A DNA stretch of 64,000 nt from the NCBI RefSeq assembly GCF_000177235.2, contig NC_014829.1, positions 2,852,001 through 2,916,000 of the forward strand, written 5' to 3'. Of this stretch, positions 55,653-63,294 are shown piece by piece. The stretch comes from Evansella cellulosilytica DSM 2522 (GTDB lineage Bacteria; Bacillota; Bacilli; Bacillales; Salisediminibacteriaceae). Position numbers and translations under genes: made by a program. The notes below the pieces were generated by a model. That model had not been told where the DNA came from and made no database searches. It saw only the letters and a list, made by a program, of their open reading frames with translations. How positions within the stretch are numbered: position 1 is the stretch's first letter; each line of letters begins with the position of its first letter.

Positions 55653-55728
55653 GATCCGTTAGCTCAGCTGGGAGAGCGCCACCTTGACAGGGTGGAGGTC
55701 ACTGGTTCGAACCCAGTACGGGTCACCA
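55653..55728 (+). tRNA. tRNA-Val (anticodon GAC)
   Basis: Full cloverleaf of 76 bases with encoded CCA. Acceptor GATCCGT pairs with ACGGGTC, D arm has AGCTCAGCTGGGAGAGC, anticodon stem CCACC/GGTGG surrounds loop TTGACAG (anticodon GAC), T arm CTGGTTCGAACCCAG. Marks the left boundary of the integrated element. Confidence 0.96.
55703..55728. other. Inferred attachment site (attL) at the tRNA 3' end
   Basis: Plasmid-like element genes begin right after the tRNA. Integration elements usually duplicate the T arm and acceptor end. The second copy is expected beyond the right edge and is not in the window, so this is inference. Confidence 0.5.
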
Positions 55729-55861: not shown

Positions 55862-56584
55862 TTATTTTACTTTTAATTTTATTGGATTAGGATTTGTCAC
55901 CCTAATAAACTCTTGAGGACTTGATATAAACTCATCTAAAGTCCCTGTAATTACTCTGAGGTTACTAAAACGATTCGATAAATTTAAAAGCACTCTTTTT
56001 CTGGTATTGCTATTTGTAATAAAAAGTATGTCTGGAAATATTCCATACATGTTTTGGAATTTGTGTGACCTATATAGATAATCATATTTTTTAAATTTTT
56101 CTTCGATGATTACAGCGCTCTCTGTTCCTCGATCCGCTTCCACAAATATAAGCTTTTTCTTTCCAGTACTTCTTAATCGATACTCAACAAATGCATCTAC
56201 TAATAAATCCTCATGTATCTTATCTTCAACCTTGTAACGTTTTACCTGCCCTATTCTGCACTTTTGCAATTGAATGTATATTTCCGAGACCATAACTTGG
56301 TGCATTGATTTATCATTTTTTTTTAATGTTTTTATTCCTTCAATACCAGTGAAGTGCGATAATTCTTTTGCAGCTGTCTTAGTGAGGTAATAAATTTTCT
56401 TCTCATAAGCTGATGGTTGAAATGATTTAAGCATTTTCTTCTTTTCTAATTCGTTTAGTTTCCTTCTGGTAACACGTTCCCCGTATTTTCCATTATATCC
56501 ATGTAAAGTGTGGATCTGTTGGCTATTCATAAATCTTAAATTAGCAATACTCTGTAGTATCTGGAGTTCCCTTTCCTTCAACAA
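55862..56584 (-). CDS. Replication-relaxation family protein
   Basis: A 240-residue protein with an N-terminal winged-helix part (RELQILQSIANLRFMNSQQI, RVTRRKLNELEKKKMLKSFQ, IYYLTKTAAKEL) and a C-terminal nuclease-like part with FVEADRGTESAVIIEEKFKK. This is the Replic_Relax family of plasmids and integrative elements. Start is TTG at 56584 with AGGAGGTGG upstream, inside the end of the FtsK-type gene (44-base overlap), so translation is coupled. Confidence 0.85.
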   Translation of the reverse strand: MLKERELQILQSIANLRFMNSQQIHTLHGYNGKYGERVTRRKLNELEKKKMLKSFQPSAYEKKIYYLTKTAAKELSHFTGIEGIKTLKKNDKSMHQVMVSEIYIQLQKCRIGQVKRYKVEDKIHEDLLVDAFVEYRLRSTGKKKLIFVEADRGTESAVIIEEKFKKYDYLYRSHKFQNMYGIFPDILFITNSNTRKRVLLNLSNRFSNLRVITGTLDEFISSPQEFIRVTNPNPIKLKVK

Positions 56585-57758
56585 CCGGATCCACCTCCTG
56601 CATATAAAACTCATCTAATTCTTTAATGCGCTTATAAATGATTTTGTTTGCAATCTCTTCTTCCAGAAGTGGCGTTTGTACTTCCCTTTCCGTTTTAAAT
56701 TGCACGATAGAACGACCTGGGTATTCTTTTGGGATTTGCGCTGCTTTTACATTATCCAAAATTATCTTTGAGTTTACTGAGTTGATAACTTTAAAAGCCA
56801 CTTTCATTGGACAGTTTGCTTTAATTTGTCCTTCGAGCACCTTTGCGTCTGGTCTCTGAGTAGCGAGTATCATGTGAAAGCCTAGAGCGCGACCAAGACG
56901 TGCAATTCTTTGAATCGAATCTGTATCTTCTATTTCCGCTAACTCATCCACAATGATCAGATGATACGGTAATTTTCCTTCTTCAGGTACTGAGTTGTTA
57001 TAAGCTTCAATATCTTTCTTCCGAGATTTTTCTTTAATCAATTGACCACGTTTATCTAACTCTCCATTAATATTTTTCAATGCCTCCTCTACTTTATACA
57101 CATCGTCCACAAAGGTTTCTACATGTGGAAGGTTTTCGAACATTGAGAGTTCTAAACCAAACTTCAAGTCAAAGAGATGAATTCGCACTTGCCGTGGATC
57201 TCTCAGTATTGCAATAGCTGTTAACAACTGTCGAATAAAAGTTGACTTACCTCCGCCTGTTTCCCCTCCAACAATTCCGTGAGGTGCTTTAGTTAAATCT
57301 ACATATTCTTTACCTTTTCTCGAGATACCAAGGAAACAGGGAAGAATCATTCTCCACGTATTATCACGTATCTCATCAAGATTGAAACTACATTCTGTTG
57401 GTACCTTCCCTGTGAACACGTCAATATAAAGTCGGTTTCCTTCCCCTCTAATTTCAGCAGCACCATTAAAAGCTGTTTCAATAAAACTTTTCTTTGCTTC
57501 AAACGCTTTTATGCTCATACCGTTTTTCATTTTATACTCGAATCGATAACCCCAATTTTCTTCAACAAAATCAACAAGATCAGGAGTTATATATTCTGTT
57601 TTACCATTATTCCTTATCTTTTTTATCGCCATATCCGCTTTTATAAAAGATACTTTCATGTGTTTAACAGGATCAAAAGTCTTTCTGTTTTTATATAGTC
57701 CATAACTTGCTGTACCGAAGATCATTACACCAACTGTAGATAGCAAAACACTAAGCAT
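56541..57758 (-). CDS. FtsK/SpoIIIE-type DNA translocase
   Basis: A 405-residue motor protein. One N-terminal membrane helix (MLSVLLSTVGVMIFGTASYG), then FtsK-like ATPase: Walker A GGETGGGKST near residue 170, FDLKFGLELSMF, Walker B LIIVDELAEI near residue 275 and ILATQRPDAKVL. Probably a coupling or replication-associated translocase of the element. ATG at 57758 overlaps the preceding stop as TAATG. Confidence 0.92.
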   Translation of the reverse strand: MLSVLLSTVGVMIFGTASYGLYKNRKTFDPVKHMKVSFIKADMAIKKIRNNGKTEYITPDLVDFVEENWGYRFEYKMKNGMSIKAFEAKKSFIETAFNGAAEIRGEGNRLYIDVFTGKVPTECSFNLDEIRDNTWRMILPCFLGISRKGKEYVDLTKAPHGIVGGETGGGKSTFIRQLLTAIAILRDPRQVRIHLFDLKFGLELSMFENLPHVETFVDDVYKVEEALKNINGELDKRGQLIKEKSRKKDIEAYNNSVPEEGKLPYHLIIVDELAEIEDTDSIQRIARLGRALGFHMILATQRPDAKVLEGQIKANCPMKVAFKVINSVNSKIILDNVKAAQIPKEYPGRSIVQFKTEREVQTPLLEEEIANKIIYKRIKELDEFYMQEVDPVVEGKGTPDTTEYC

Positions 57759-58063
57759 TAAATTACCCCCCCTGAAAACATGAGCCAAAATAAGAATCCA
57801 AATGCAGCAATTGAACTAACAACCTTTAATAAAGTTTCAAAAATCTCTTGTACATCATCATTAAAGAAATTAACAAGTATGCTACCAAAACCAACGGTCA
57901 ATATAAATCCATAAGCTCCTAACAGTACTGGAGACATATTAAAAAAAGAACCAGTGGGTATTAAGCCTATAGACATTAGTGAAGTAGAAGCTGAATTAGG
58001 AATTTTATTTATATAGTCATAGTTCAAAAAATCACGAAAATTTATTGTTTCTACTTTAGTCAT
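57758..58063 (-). CDS. Small two-helix membrane protein of the element
   Basis: A 101-residue protein, N-terminal METKVETINF-like soluble part then hydrophobic VLLGAYGFILTVGFGSILV and VVSSIAAFGFLFWLMFSGG. ATG at 58063 lies in ATGACTAA overlapping the stop of the upstream zinc-ribbon gene. Unknown role; likely a membrane partner of the FtsK-type protein. Confidence 0.75.
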   Translation of the reverse strand: MTKVETINFRDFLNYDYINKIPNSASTSLMSIGLIPTGSFFNMSPVLLGAYGFILTVGFGSILVNFFNDDVQEIFETLLKVVSSIAAFGFLFWLMFSGGVI

Positions 58064-58682: not shown

Positions 58683-59489
58683 AGAGAGCCCTCCCGATCT
58701 GGTAAAAACCTATAGCATTCGCAAAAACCGGATCTACAACAGCTCCATTAACAACCGGTTTAATGATCTCTGCATTTGGATAATACTTTCTTACCGGCTC
58801 AGCAGTTCTTTGGAAACTCCACCGACTAATAGTACATGGTCACTGGTGTTCCATCTCTTTGATGTGTGGGAATAGATACCTCTGGCCAGTTCATTTAGGT
58901 CGCTGGTGCGAATAGTCTCCATACCGAATGGTAAAGTAAATGAATCTTTGTTTATATAGCGCTTGTTGTTTAATGAAGCACAGTTAACCGTTCCGCTACC
59001 TACATCAATGATCCGCAATTTACCATCCACAGGAGCAGACCAAAACGCAGCCCCTCCTTCTGCAGCTACCTCACATTCATCAATCCAAAATGTCTTAGTT
59101 ATTCCATTAACAGTGATGGTATGTTTACCTTTAATCATTTGTTTAATTGCTGTTTTTTCTTCTGGATTATGTTTGCTAATTGGCTGACCAACAACAATCT
59201 TAAAGTGCAAATTGTCTCCGCATCGATGGAGCCCCAACAGCAACCTAATTAAGGCGTCTTCATGTGCCTTTGAATCACCCATGATCGATGAACCAAAATC
59301 ACTTTCATTCTCTGCTAATGACCCAGCAAATCCTTTTCTATTTCGGTACTCAAAGATCATGTCATCCTCACCATGAACGTTTTCTAGGTTTCGATCCCAA
59401 TACTCACCAATAGCAGATGAAAATTTTGCAATCCCTAACTCACACATAATTTTTGCGAACCGATTACCCCAATCAAAACCAACAATCAT
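58648..59489 (-). pseudogene. ParM-like actin-fold protein, frameshifted near the C-terminus
   Basis: Actin-like ATPase for plasmid segregation: VGFDWGNRFAK (phosphate 1), IIDVGSGTVN (phosphate 2), VLLVGGVSKEL (adenosine). As sequenced the frame stops at 58791 after 232 residues. In the next frame the expected C-terminus continues, YYPNAEIIKPVVNGAVVDP then FANAIGFYQIGRALYDEN, ending at 58648. The shift lies in CTGCTGAGCC (58797-58805). Full length would be about 280. ATG at 59489 has TAAGGAGG upstream. Could be an error or a real mutation. Confidence 0.85.
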
Positions 59490-59861: not shown

Positions 59862-59900
59862 TCTCAACTTGGAAATAATGAAGTTGAGGTGATGTACACT

Positions 59901-60383
59901 ATGATTGGATTAATAATTGGATTGATGATAGCAATTCCTATAATTTGGTCATATAAATTGTTAAAAGAACCAGATTTCCAATTAAATATTGATGAATTGT
60001 CAATTGAAGATATTGATGAGATGAACGGTTATGAGTTCGAGAATATCCTAAAACCGTTATTTGAAACTCAAGGATATAAAGCGAACATTACAAAGGGATC
60101 TGGGGATTATGGAGCAGATTTAGTACTTTCTAAGAATGGGGAAAGGACAGTAGTGCAAGCCAAATGCTACAAATCAAATATTGGGGTAACTGCAGTGCAA
60201 CAAATAGTTGCTGCAATCAAATATTATAATGCAGATGATGCAATTGTAGTAAGTAATCAGTTTTTTACAAAACAGGCAAAAAGGTTAGCTAGTATTAATA
60301 ACGTAAAATTAATTGATCGTGTAGAAATACAAGAACTGATCTTAAAATACAACAGGGAAGTAAAACGAAGAAGTTCAATCTAA
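59901..60383 (+). CDS. Membrane-anchored Mrr-type restriction endonuclease-like protein
   Basis: A 160-residue protein: one N-terminal membrane helix (MIGLIIGLMIAIPIIWSYKL), then a PD-(D/E)xK fold with YEFENILKPLFETQGY, GSGDYGADLVL (catalytic Asp) and VVQAKCYKSNIGV (QxK), followed by AIVVSNQFFTKQAKRLA. Mrr-cat family. ATG at 59901 is nine bases from GAGGTG. Role in element defence or DNA processing is inferred. Confidence 0.87.
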   Translation: MIGLIIGLMIAIPIIWSYKLLKEPDFQLNIDELSIEDIDEMNGYEFENILKPLFETQGYKANITKGSGDYGADLVLSKNGERTVVQAKCYKSNIGVTAVQQIVAAIKYYNADDAIVVSNQFFTKQAKRLASINNVKLIDRVEIQELILKYNREVKRRSSI

Positions 60384-61300: not shown

Positions 61301-61318
61301 AAAGCCCAATAAGGGCTA
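61301..61318 (-). terminator. Terminator of the four-gene operon
   Basis: AGCCC-AATAA... /GGGCT hairpin overlapping the stop codon of the last gene, followed on the minus strand by TTTTTT. Confidence 0.75.
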
Positions 61319-61735
61319 ATGTATTTGGAATGGAGATTCAAAAGTTATTGCTTGTCGTTCATCTAATAAATGTGGTTTAACTTCATAATTATTTTTCTCA
61401 TAGATATATTTTGTAAAGTCTAAAGGTATATCGTAGGGTAAGAATAATCTAAAAGCAGAGTTTTTATGGAACCGACGATCTAATTCGGTTAATTTTAAAT
61501 ATTCATTAATTGAATTTTGAATTAACGGGAAAATATCATTGTACTCGCTAAAATAAGCTGTAACTATTACTGAACTAATATCATTAATTGTTATGGTTAA
61601 CTTTTCTGTTTTATATAAGAGCATGTCACCATGATTAACAGTGAATTCACTAATTTTGGTTTGCAGTTCATCTAAATTATCCAGAATATAAGTGTTATCG
61701 GAATTGAAGATTATTTCCAATTTTTTATCATTCAT
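61316..61735 (-). CDS. Operon gene 4, hypothetical 139 residues
   Basis: Soluble alpha/beta-looking protein: KKLEIIFNSDNTYILDNLDE, YKTEKLTITINDISSVIVTA and SAFRLFLPYDIPLDFTKYIY. No family recognised. ATG overlaps the previous stop as ATGA. Last gene of the operon starting at 63166. Confidence 0.8.
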   Translation of the reverse strand: MNDKKLEIIFNSDNTYILDNLDELQTKISEFTVNHGDMLLYKTEKLTITINDISSVIVTAYFSEYNDIFPLIQNSINEYLKLTELDRRFHKNSAFRLFLPYDIPLDFTKYIYEKNNYEVKPHLLDERQAITFESPFQIH

Positions 61736-62058
61736 ACTTGATCCCCCGTTTTTGTGGAATCTTCTATAGTATTTAATATCTTATCAACGCTGTATAGTGT
61801 TGTCATTAAATTTGCTGTTTCGCTATTACCTATAGTATTTCCAAGCTCATTATATTTAACCTCTAAAGTTTCAACTTGTGTTTTAGCCCTACCGAATCTT
61901 GTGGTGGTATTTGGGTCAGTTTTAACTAATCGATTTGTTCGTTCGATAGTATCAATACGTATTTTTAGTTCGGTGATATGGTCAGCTAGTTGGTTCTCAT
62001 TATATCCATGTAAGTATTGTACCACTTTTGATATTTCACTAAAACTATAATTATTCAT
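61732..62058 (-). CDS. Operon gene 3, coiled-coil-like 108 residues
   Basis: Helical, charged protein: SEISKVVQYLHGYNENQLAD, ITELKIRIDTIERTNRLVKT, VETLEVKYNELGNTIGNSET. Amphipathic heptad pattern. Coupled on both sides by ATGA overlaps. Unknown. Confidence 0.8.
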   Translation of the reverse strand: MNNYSFSEISKVVQYLHGYNENQLADHITELKIRIDTIERTNRLVKTDPNTTTRFGRAKTQVETLEVKYNELGNTIGNSETANLMTTLYSVDKILNTIEDSTKTGDQV

Positions 62059-62528
62059 ACCGATAACTCCTTAAATTGCTTCGTGACTTCTTCTTGTATT
62101 GATTTTAATTCGAATAGTATCTTTTTCATTTTTTTATTATAATCTGAATTGTCATCTATTGTTTTACATAAGGAGTATAAAGTGTTAATTCTACTTTCGA
62201 TAAGACCAGAAGAAAATTTTATAATTGCTTTATTAGATGAAATTGTTTTTTCTAATGCCGAGATATTTATAGTATATTCTACTCCAGAATGAGACTTGTC
62301 AATATACAATTGGTATTCTTCTATTATCGGTTTATAAACTTTTGGATACAATTCGTTCATAATCAATGAATAAATAAATTCTTTTCTAACTTCTTTCTTA
62401 TTAGATCTGTATATGAAGAATGTAATTATAATCGTCAATAAGCTTCCTAATAAACCGCTAAAAAATTGTGGTATCAATTCATTACTTATTAAAGATAATA
62501 AAATGATATCTGTTAATGTGTAAGTCAT
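62055..62528 (-). CDS. Operon gene 2, membrane protein of 157 residues
   Basis: Two hydrophobic stretches at the N-terminus (LTDIILLSLISNELIPQF, and GSLLTIIITFFIYRSNKK) then a long helical cytosolic part (ALEKTISSNKAIIKFSSGLI, KKMKKILFELKSIQEEVTKQ). Looks like a membrane-anchored coiled-coil. Unknown function. ATGA overlaps with both neighbours. Confidence 0.82.
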   Translation of the reverse strand: MTYTLTDIILLSLISNELIPQFFSGLLGSLLTIIITFFIYRSNKKEVRKEFIYSLIMNELYPKVYKPIIEEYQLYIDKSHSGVEYTINISALEKTISSNKAIIKFSSGLIESRINTLYSLCKTIDDNSDYNKKMKKILFELKSIQEEVTKQFKELSV

Positions 62529-63166
62529 TTTTTACTTCTCTCTTCTTCTTTATATAAAAAATTTTCCATTAAGGAGTGGAAACGGTCAAAATCTTTTTTT
62601 AATTTATCGTATTCATCGACATTAATATTATTTGCGCCTTTGTCAAATTTAAATATGAGGTTATCAATAAGTGTACTAGCTAGTGCCATGCCATCATTAA
62701 AATTAAGTGCTGCATGGAATATAGTGTTATTATTTTTAACAAGTGTCATAGAAAATTCGAATGGAGAAGATTCAGGAAAACCAAAAACAGATCCTTTAAT
62801 TCCATTTGGACTATTTAGCACTTTATCCATTTGCATGAAGTGGTAACTAGAAGCTCTTTTTAACATTTCAATCCTTCGAAAAACTTCCCTGTGTTTTCCA
62901 TTATAGTTTGGTACAATTCGTTTAGAAACATATTCTTGAAATGTTTTCATATGCTCTCCAAGCAGTTCAAATCCATGTACCTGATAATCAATAAAATTTG
63001 CGACTACTAAATCACTATTCGAAGATAAATAATTAGTTGTAATCTGTTCAATTGTTTGTAGGTTATTATTTGTATTCAAATAATCGATAAGATTATTGAA
63101 CATATCATCGAACTTTTCCTGATCAAAACCAGTTCTAATATTGGTTGTTTCAAACTTCTTTTCCAT
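62525..63166 (-). CDS. Operon gene 1, hypothetical 213 residues
   Basis: First gene of the operon. Helical N-terminus (FDDMFNNLIDYLNTNNNLQT, DLVVANFIDYQVHGFELLGE) and a beta part with GSVFGFPESSPFEFSMTLVK and FHAALNFNDGMALASTLID. No motif recognised. ATG at 63166 follows GAGGTG; GTG at 63175 is too close to the site. Confidence 0.8.
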   Translation of the reverse strand: MEKKFETTNIRTGFDQEKFDDMFNNLIDYLNTNNNLQTIEQITTNYLSSNSDLVVANFIDYQVHGFELLGEHMKTFQEYVSKRIVPNYNGKHREVFRRIEMLKRASSYHFMQMDKVLNSPNGIKGSVFGFPESSPFEFSMTLVKNNNTIFHAALNFNDGMALASTLIDNLIFKFDKGANNINVDEYDKLKKDFDRFHSLMENFLYKEEERSKK

Positions 63167-63267
63167 TGAAAACACCTCTATATAATTTATTATCTAAAAA
63201 TTACGTATGTGTATGCGATATAAACATAATTCTGCATTTAATTGTCAATTCCTGCAAAAAAATAAAA

Positions 63268-63287
63268 AAACAGGATTTCTCCTGCTC
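63268..63287 (-). terminator. Terminator of the 50-residue gene
   Basis: CAGGA-TTTC-TCCTG hairpin followed on the minus strand by a long T-run. Confidence 0.85.
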
Positions 63288-63294
63288 TTTGGAC

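Follow-up and report, generated by a model that had tools for sequence, protein, structure and literature searches.

The four overlapping genes at positions 61316 to 63166 of the window form a prophage accessory cassette of the moron type, and this conclusion is well supported. By the window we mean the whole 64,000-nucleotide stretch of DNA that was analysed, which spans 2,852,001-2,916,000 of the 4,681,672-bp chromosome of Evansella (Bacillus) cellulosilytica DSM 2522. The best explanation of the cassette's role, to which we give a probability of about 0.5, is that it encodes a membrane-tethered complex acting in anti-phage defence or superinfection exclusion. Position, neighbours, membrane topology and an analogy with the protein PdpSau point to this reading.

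The operon and its host prophage

A first-pass annotation had described four consecutive genes, overlapping by ATGA at every junction and followed by a terminator, and each part of this description is borne out. The genes, named A to D here, are intact minus-strand frames running from 63166 to 61316, the 4-nt ATGA overlap is present at all three junctions, and a stem (61317-61303) with a T-run follows D.

62525..63166, minus strand: gene A, 213 aa, heads the operon; without membrane segment; ribosome-binding site AGAGGTG
62055..62528, minus strand: gene B, 157 aa; a single membrane region, then basic residues and a C-terminal part
61732..62058, minus strand: gene C, 108 aa; acidic (pI 5.3); without membrane segment
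61316..61735, minus strand: gene D, 139 aa, ends the operon; acidic (pI 4.9); without membrane segment
61303..61317, minus strand: terminator overlapping the stop of D (z -2.25; 7 of 200 shuffles fold as well)
63243..63248, minus strand: TTGACA upstream of A, found by eye; no good -10 partner
63265..63290, minus strand: terminator-like site upstream of A, separating it from the short ORFs that precede it

Four such frames are not given by chance, since open frames of at least 108 codons arose at a mean of 0.0075 per mononucleotide shuffle (2000 shuffles, three frames) against the four observed. The overlaps, taken alone, are ordinary: of the 44 pairs of adjacent ORFs that share a direction in the 100 kb around the operon, 13 allow a 4-nt overlap, the operon's three included, and overlaps are also possible there between tail genes. 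By eye, a plausible ribosome-binding site precedes each start (from A to D: AGAGGTG, AAGAGAGAAG, AAGGAG and GGGGGAT), that of B being the weakest of the four. The promoter of A is uncertain, because the TTGACA lacks a good -10 partner; a promoter scan upstream of A passed no site. No Rfam family was found in the two stretches scanned (L007, which takes in genome positions 2916089-2917805, and L020).

The annotation had further placed this cargo operon inside an integrated element, beside plasmid maintenance genes. The integrated element is supported, but the plasmid context has to be corrected: the element is a tailed-phage prophage of 35,035 bp, inserted in tRNA-Val(GAC), with a 47-bp att repeat at both ends. 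It carries small and large terminase, portal, major capsid, tape measure and Dit genes. The published genome report places a prophage at 2,902,461-2,946,144 of DSM 2522 (CP002394.1), notes that software called it intact, and reports no plasmids and no CRISPR in the strain (PMC3617157).

55684..55730 (genome from 2,907,684), plus strand: att repeat copy 1, 47 bp, at the 3' end of tRNA-Val GAC (55653-55728)
Genome 2,942,672-2,942,718, beyond the window: att repeat copy 2, 153 bases past the tyrosine integrase
55862..56614, minus strand: replication-relaxation protein of the prophage (PF13814)
56541..57788, minus strand: FtsK/SpoIIIE-like protein of the prophage, from profile matches
58791..59489, minus strand: actin-like partition protein, 232 aa, matching positions 4-208 of a 329-position profile
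59889..60383, plus strand: Mrr-type nuclease domain protein with an N-terminal hydrophobic stretch (by eye)

Between the operon and FtsK the window carries an HTH gene, the Mrr-type gene and the actin-like gene, the last probably shortened to judge from its profile coverage. We rejected a conjugation or plasmid reading of this region, since FtsK, the replication-relaxation protein and the actin-like protein all have matches among phage protein families. Of 50,697 phage records, 243 contain a relative of the FtsK/SpoIIIE protein (E up to 1e-10), and all five records opened from this list hold FtsK with a replication-relaxation (or HTH) gene after the lysis genes, with 0-3 genes between. Three phage records with an ATPase of the type found beside the second copy of the operon (below) were also opened; lysis genes precede the ATPase in D6E (2 genes between) and PK2.1 (15 between), and the BpsM-61 record begins too near the ATPase gene to place them. 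These gene orders indicate that the FtsK module adjoining the operon is a usual phage feature. The prophage in the window may be defective, because no tail-tip, fibre, holin or endolysin gene was seen by eye in the ORF list between Dit and the accessory genes. At genome 2917326-2917805, Dit directly adjoins the accessory genes.

A diverged copy and the behaviour of the cassette

One relative of the operon was found, in a prophage of Salinibacillus xinjiangensis J4 (contig NZ_WJNH01000007.1), where all four genes stand in the same order at 28-39% identity. The matches span 190 aa for A (36%, E 8e-45), 138 aa for B (39%, E 3e-35), 70 aa for C (33%, E 3e-12) and 101 aa for D (29%, E 3e-13). The first-pass annotation had held that a lack of co-occurrence of the four genes in other genomes would speak against a genuine system; Salinibacillus holds A-B-C-D in order. 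The gene order there is tail genes, amidase, a 122-aa gene, A-B-C-D, a terminator and an opposite-strand ATPase gene (tail genes and amidase by eye), so that the operon lies one gene past the endolysin (by eye). The ATPase gene 3' of this operon has phage relatives. A serine recombinase was seen by eye in the Salinibacillus prophage, and no tRNA was found there.

Two lines of evidence indicate that the operon behaves as one mobile cassette, namely that it is common to largely unrelated prophages and that it lies in the most AT-rich 1.8 kb of both. For the first, the att-bounded prophage of the window was compared with 79,000-121,500 of the Salinibacillus contig (limits by eye), using ORFs of at least 50 aa (n=56 and n=70, respectively) at E 1e-3. 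Seven ORFs match on each side: the four operon genes, a Lin1244-type replication protein (53%), a weak tape-measure match and a 47-residue match. At the DNA level the two prophages share one match, of 514 bases, located at the replication gene. As to the second, the GC content of the 1.8-kb stretch is 27.8% in the window prophage and 27.3% in Salinibacillus, against means, taken over windows, of 35.3% and 37.8%. In both of these otherwise unrelated phages the operon has the late genes on one side and an FtsK-type module on the other, with terminator-like sites before and after it (consensus matches only).

Prophage morons in general are terminator-bounded, AT-rich, placed between phage modules and patchily distributed. 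The operon resembles them in all of these respects: it lies between conserved phage modules, deviates in base composition and is isolated by terminator-like sites from the late transcript. Where morons have one or two genes it has four, all coupled, and its candidate promoter is the TTGACA found by eye.

The patchy distribution is apparent from whole-genome searches, whose samples overlap one another. Accepted matches were confined to the genome itself in its genus (1 of 9 genomes), family (1 of 35; a second match, E 0.003, was judged chance), class (1 of 398) and phylum (1 of 299), and in its order S. xinjiangensis J4 was added (2 of 397, eight weaker matches being rejected). Around J4, the family (1 of 22) and the order (1 of 396) yielded J4 itself, with one and three weak matches rejected, respectively, and none of 80 genomes of another family had an accepted match. 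Twelve weak whole-genome matches (E 2e-4 to 0.007) were rejected as relatives. Five of the twelve were inspected by their surrounding ORFs and judged chance, being unrelated proteins, opposite-strand matches or matches with internal stops. Six order-level matches came from one genus and all fell on the artificial A/B junction of the joined query; one of these, when inspected, was an ordinary membrane protein. A 175-aa protein (L013:1465-1992) lies behind a weak chance match to A.

Outside the genome samples, A, B and the joined Salinibacillus proteins had no match in either phage or plasmid records, and D had none in phage records. A contig collection searched with A returned nothing beyond the Salinibacillus contig. 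Eight scans of viral contigs (seven with A, B or D, one with the FtsK protein) found no relative; such scans need short near-exact peptides, and distant relatives are therefore missed. The operon proteins used as single queries in genome and contig collections were A, B and D, the last for phage records and viral contigs only.

Protein families, membrane topology and neighbouring genes

That none of the four proteins shows a recognised motif, as had been claimed, agrees with the profile searches, in which no match of A-D exceeded a curated cut-off. Pfam passed none of the eight proteins (A-D of both copies), and PADLOC-DB 2.0.0 returned nothing for any of the eight at E up to 1. In NCBIfam, searched with the window copy, C gave the best match, to DpdI (14.2 bits, cut-off 150). 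PHROGs gave no convincing match for any of the four; Salinibacillus B matched phrog_12848, a family of unknown function, over 55 residues (E 7e-4), which was not seen with window B. A PDB sequence search with four alignments gave nothing convincing (best E 0.14). Homologs with conjugation or replication roles, which the annotation had named as evidence against a new system, were not found either: no transfer, replication or partition family appeared in Pfam, NCBIfam or PHROGs.

The operon had also been said to include a membrane-anchored coiled-coil protein. The membrane part of this claim stands, as window B has a single hydrophobic region at about residues 17-41, and Salinibacillus B likewise has one. 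In a 19-residue Kyte-Doolittle scan the windows starting at 17-23 exceed 1.6 (best 22-40, mean 2.07), and A, C and D show no region above this value. The coiled coil is unproven: the heptad-period power of B was reached by 44 of 500 shuffles, and that of Salinibacillus B by 14 of 500. Within the membrane region SGxLGSxLT is kept between both copies, and small-xxx-small spacings of this kind are often seen in helix pairing. Salinibacillus A retains the patches QVHxFELLGxH and FRRIE...H..Q.D of A. A degenerate HEPN-type motif noticed by eye in A (about residues 98-109) was dropped, its spacing not being kept between copies. The AlphaFold model of A, built from two sequences, is all-helical and of low confidence (mean pLDDT 56.6, pTM 0.48), and nothing is therefore drawn from the fold on the function of A.

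The accessory stretch holds other genes that resemble defence genes. Just past the window end, at genome 2,916,089-2,917,325 in the same prophage, two adjacent genes match PDC-M04A (DUF3800; E 6.2e-84) and PDC-M04B (E 1.8e-62), the two parts of a candidate defence system in PADLOC, both over nearly their full length. The pair lies 0.9 kb upstream of the operon on the opposite strand, its profiles match none of A-D, and the operon is flanked on its other side by the Mrr-type nuclease domain protein. As a control, ten core phage proteins were run through PADLOC; seven had no match and three (FtsK, repressor and AAA) gave partial-length matches, with E values as low as 1.5e-40 for FtsK. On its own a PADLOC match is consequently weak, and a full-length adjacent pair stronger. 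The PDC-M04A/B pair lends circumstantial support to the defence idea. In the early region of the prophage (genome 2934778-2935470), a protein matches PDC-S64 (E 3.3e-16), and an RNxxxH stretch in it resembles, by eye, the HEPN motif. On the Salinibacillus side, two genes were scanned, the 122-aa one and that of a membrane protein encoded elsewhere in the prophage; neither gave a convincing match. A small membrane protein of cargo type is encoded at 92751-93392 of that contig, and no protein of the window prophage matches it at E 1e-3.

Possible roles of the operon

We propose that B, with one helix in the membrane, would anchor a complex with the soluble A, C and D, that the operon would be expressed in the lysogen, and that the complex may protect the lysogen by stopping a second phage, either by superinfection exclusion at the membrane or by abortive infection that depends on the membrane. 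In favor of a defence role, the four genes are kept in order in a second prophage, and the PDC-M04 pair and the Mrr-type nuclease flank the window copy. Against it, none of the operon proteins of either copy matches a known or candidate defence family in PADLOC, no catalytic motif was recognised in A-D, no promoter that would clearly drive expression in the lysogen was seen, and the fold of A is of low confidence. With only two copies known, the association with defence genes does not lend itself to statistics.

One of the nearest parallels, by description, is PdpSau, a membrane-anchored abortive-infection protein whose gene is reported always to lie downstream of the amidase gene in S. aureus prophages (PMC10127798). 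The Salinibacillus operon is likewise a prophage accessory locus past the amidase/endolysin, and B, like PdpSau, has a single membrane helix near its N-terminus and a C-terminal part beyond it, which is not a specific trait; PdpSau, as described there, differs in being a single 278-aa gene product with an oligosaccharide-binding-fold-like region, as opposed to four genes here (PMC10127798).

Among the alternatives, lysogenic conversion unrelated to phage defence survives best, although we regard it as unlikely. The operon would then encode a membrane complex altering host physiology (surface, sporulation, salt or alkali tolerance). B is a predicted membrane protein, Salinibacillus is a salt-loving genus, and annotation places Spo0E-like genes near the Salinibacillus-type ATPase in two phages, all of which is consistent with such a role. 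Growth of E. cellulosilytica in 12% NaCl at pH 9-10, as stated in the genome report (PMC3617157), likewise agrees with it; no convincing match to any host-physiology family was obtained, however, and the genes next to the window copy resemble defence genes.

Less probable still is counter-defence or host takeover by the phage itself in lytic growth. The operon adjoins the late genes and runs in the same direction, B matches the Pfam family of Tad3, a Thoeris inhibitor, at noise level (12.4 bits, cut-off 27; E 0.14), and C and D have the small size and acidity typical of inhibitors. Yet terminator-like sites cut the operon off from upstream transcripts, and four linked genes including a membrane protein would be unusual for an inhibitor.

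A competition or toxin-immunity module, the alternative offered by the first-pass annotation, is very unlikely. Salinibacillus A matches IFS, an immunity factor for toxin, but below threshold (16.7 bits against 30, E 0.008) and over 46 residues, and window A lacks this match. No toxin family rose above its cut-off: the match of C to Endotoxin_N, over 83 residues of the helical region, is sub-threshold (18.9 bits against 21.3, E 0.0014) and absent in Salinibacillus C. Decaying cargo with no present function, to which the short actin-like gene and the lack of visible tail-tip or lysis genes after Dit (by eye) might point, is highly improbable given four intact frames with plausible ribosome-binding sites, all kept at 28-39% in a distant relative.

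The accessory slots of prophages have proved a rich source of new systems of defence. A literature search made by topic rather than gene name, with subscription papers mostly outside it, found no description of the A-D genes. Returning to the membrane-tethered defence or exclusion complex, we tentatively consider it possible, at somewhat under even odds, that A-D represent a so far undescribed four-protein system of this kind; it would be made up of families without known relatives and would travel as a mobile cassette in unrelated phages of Bacillus relatives that tolerate salt and alkali. What commends the operon to attention is the combination of four families without a convincing library match in a block common to unrelated phages, one copy of which stands beside a candidate defence pair. 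The two diverged copies would serve as natural controls.
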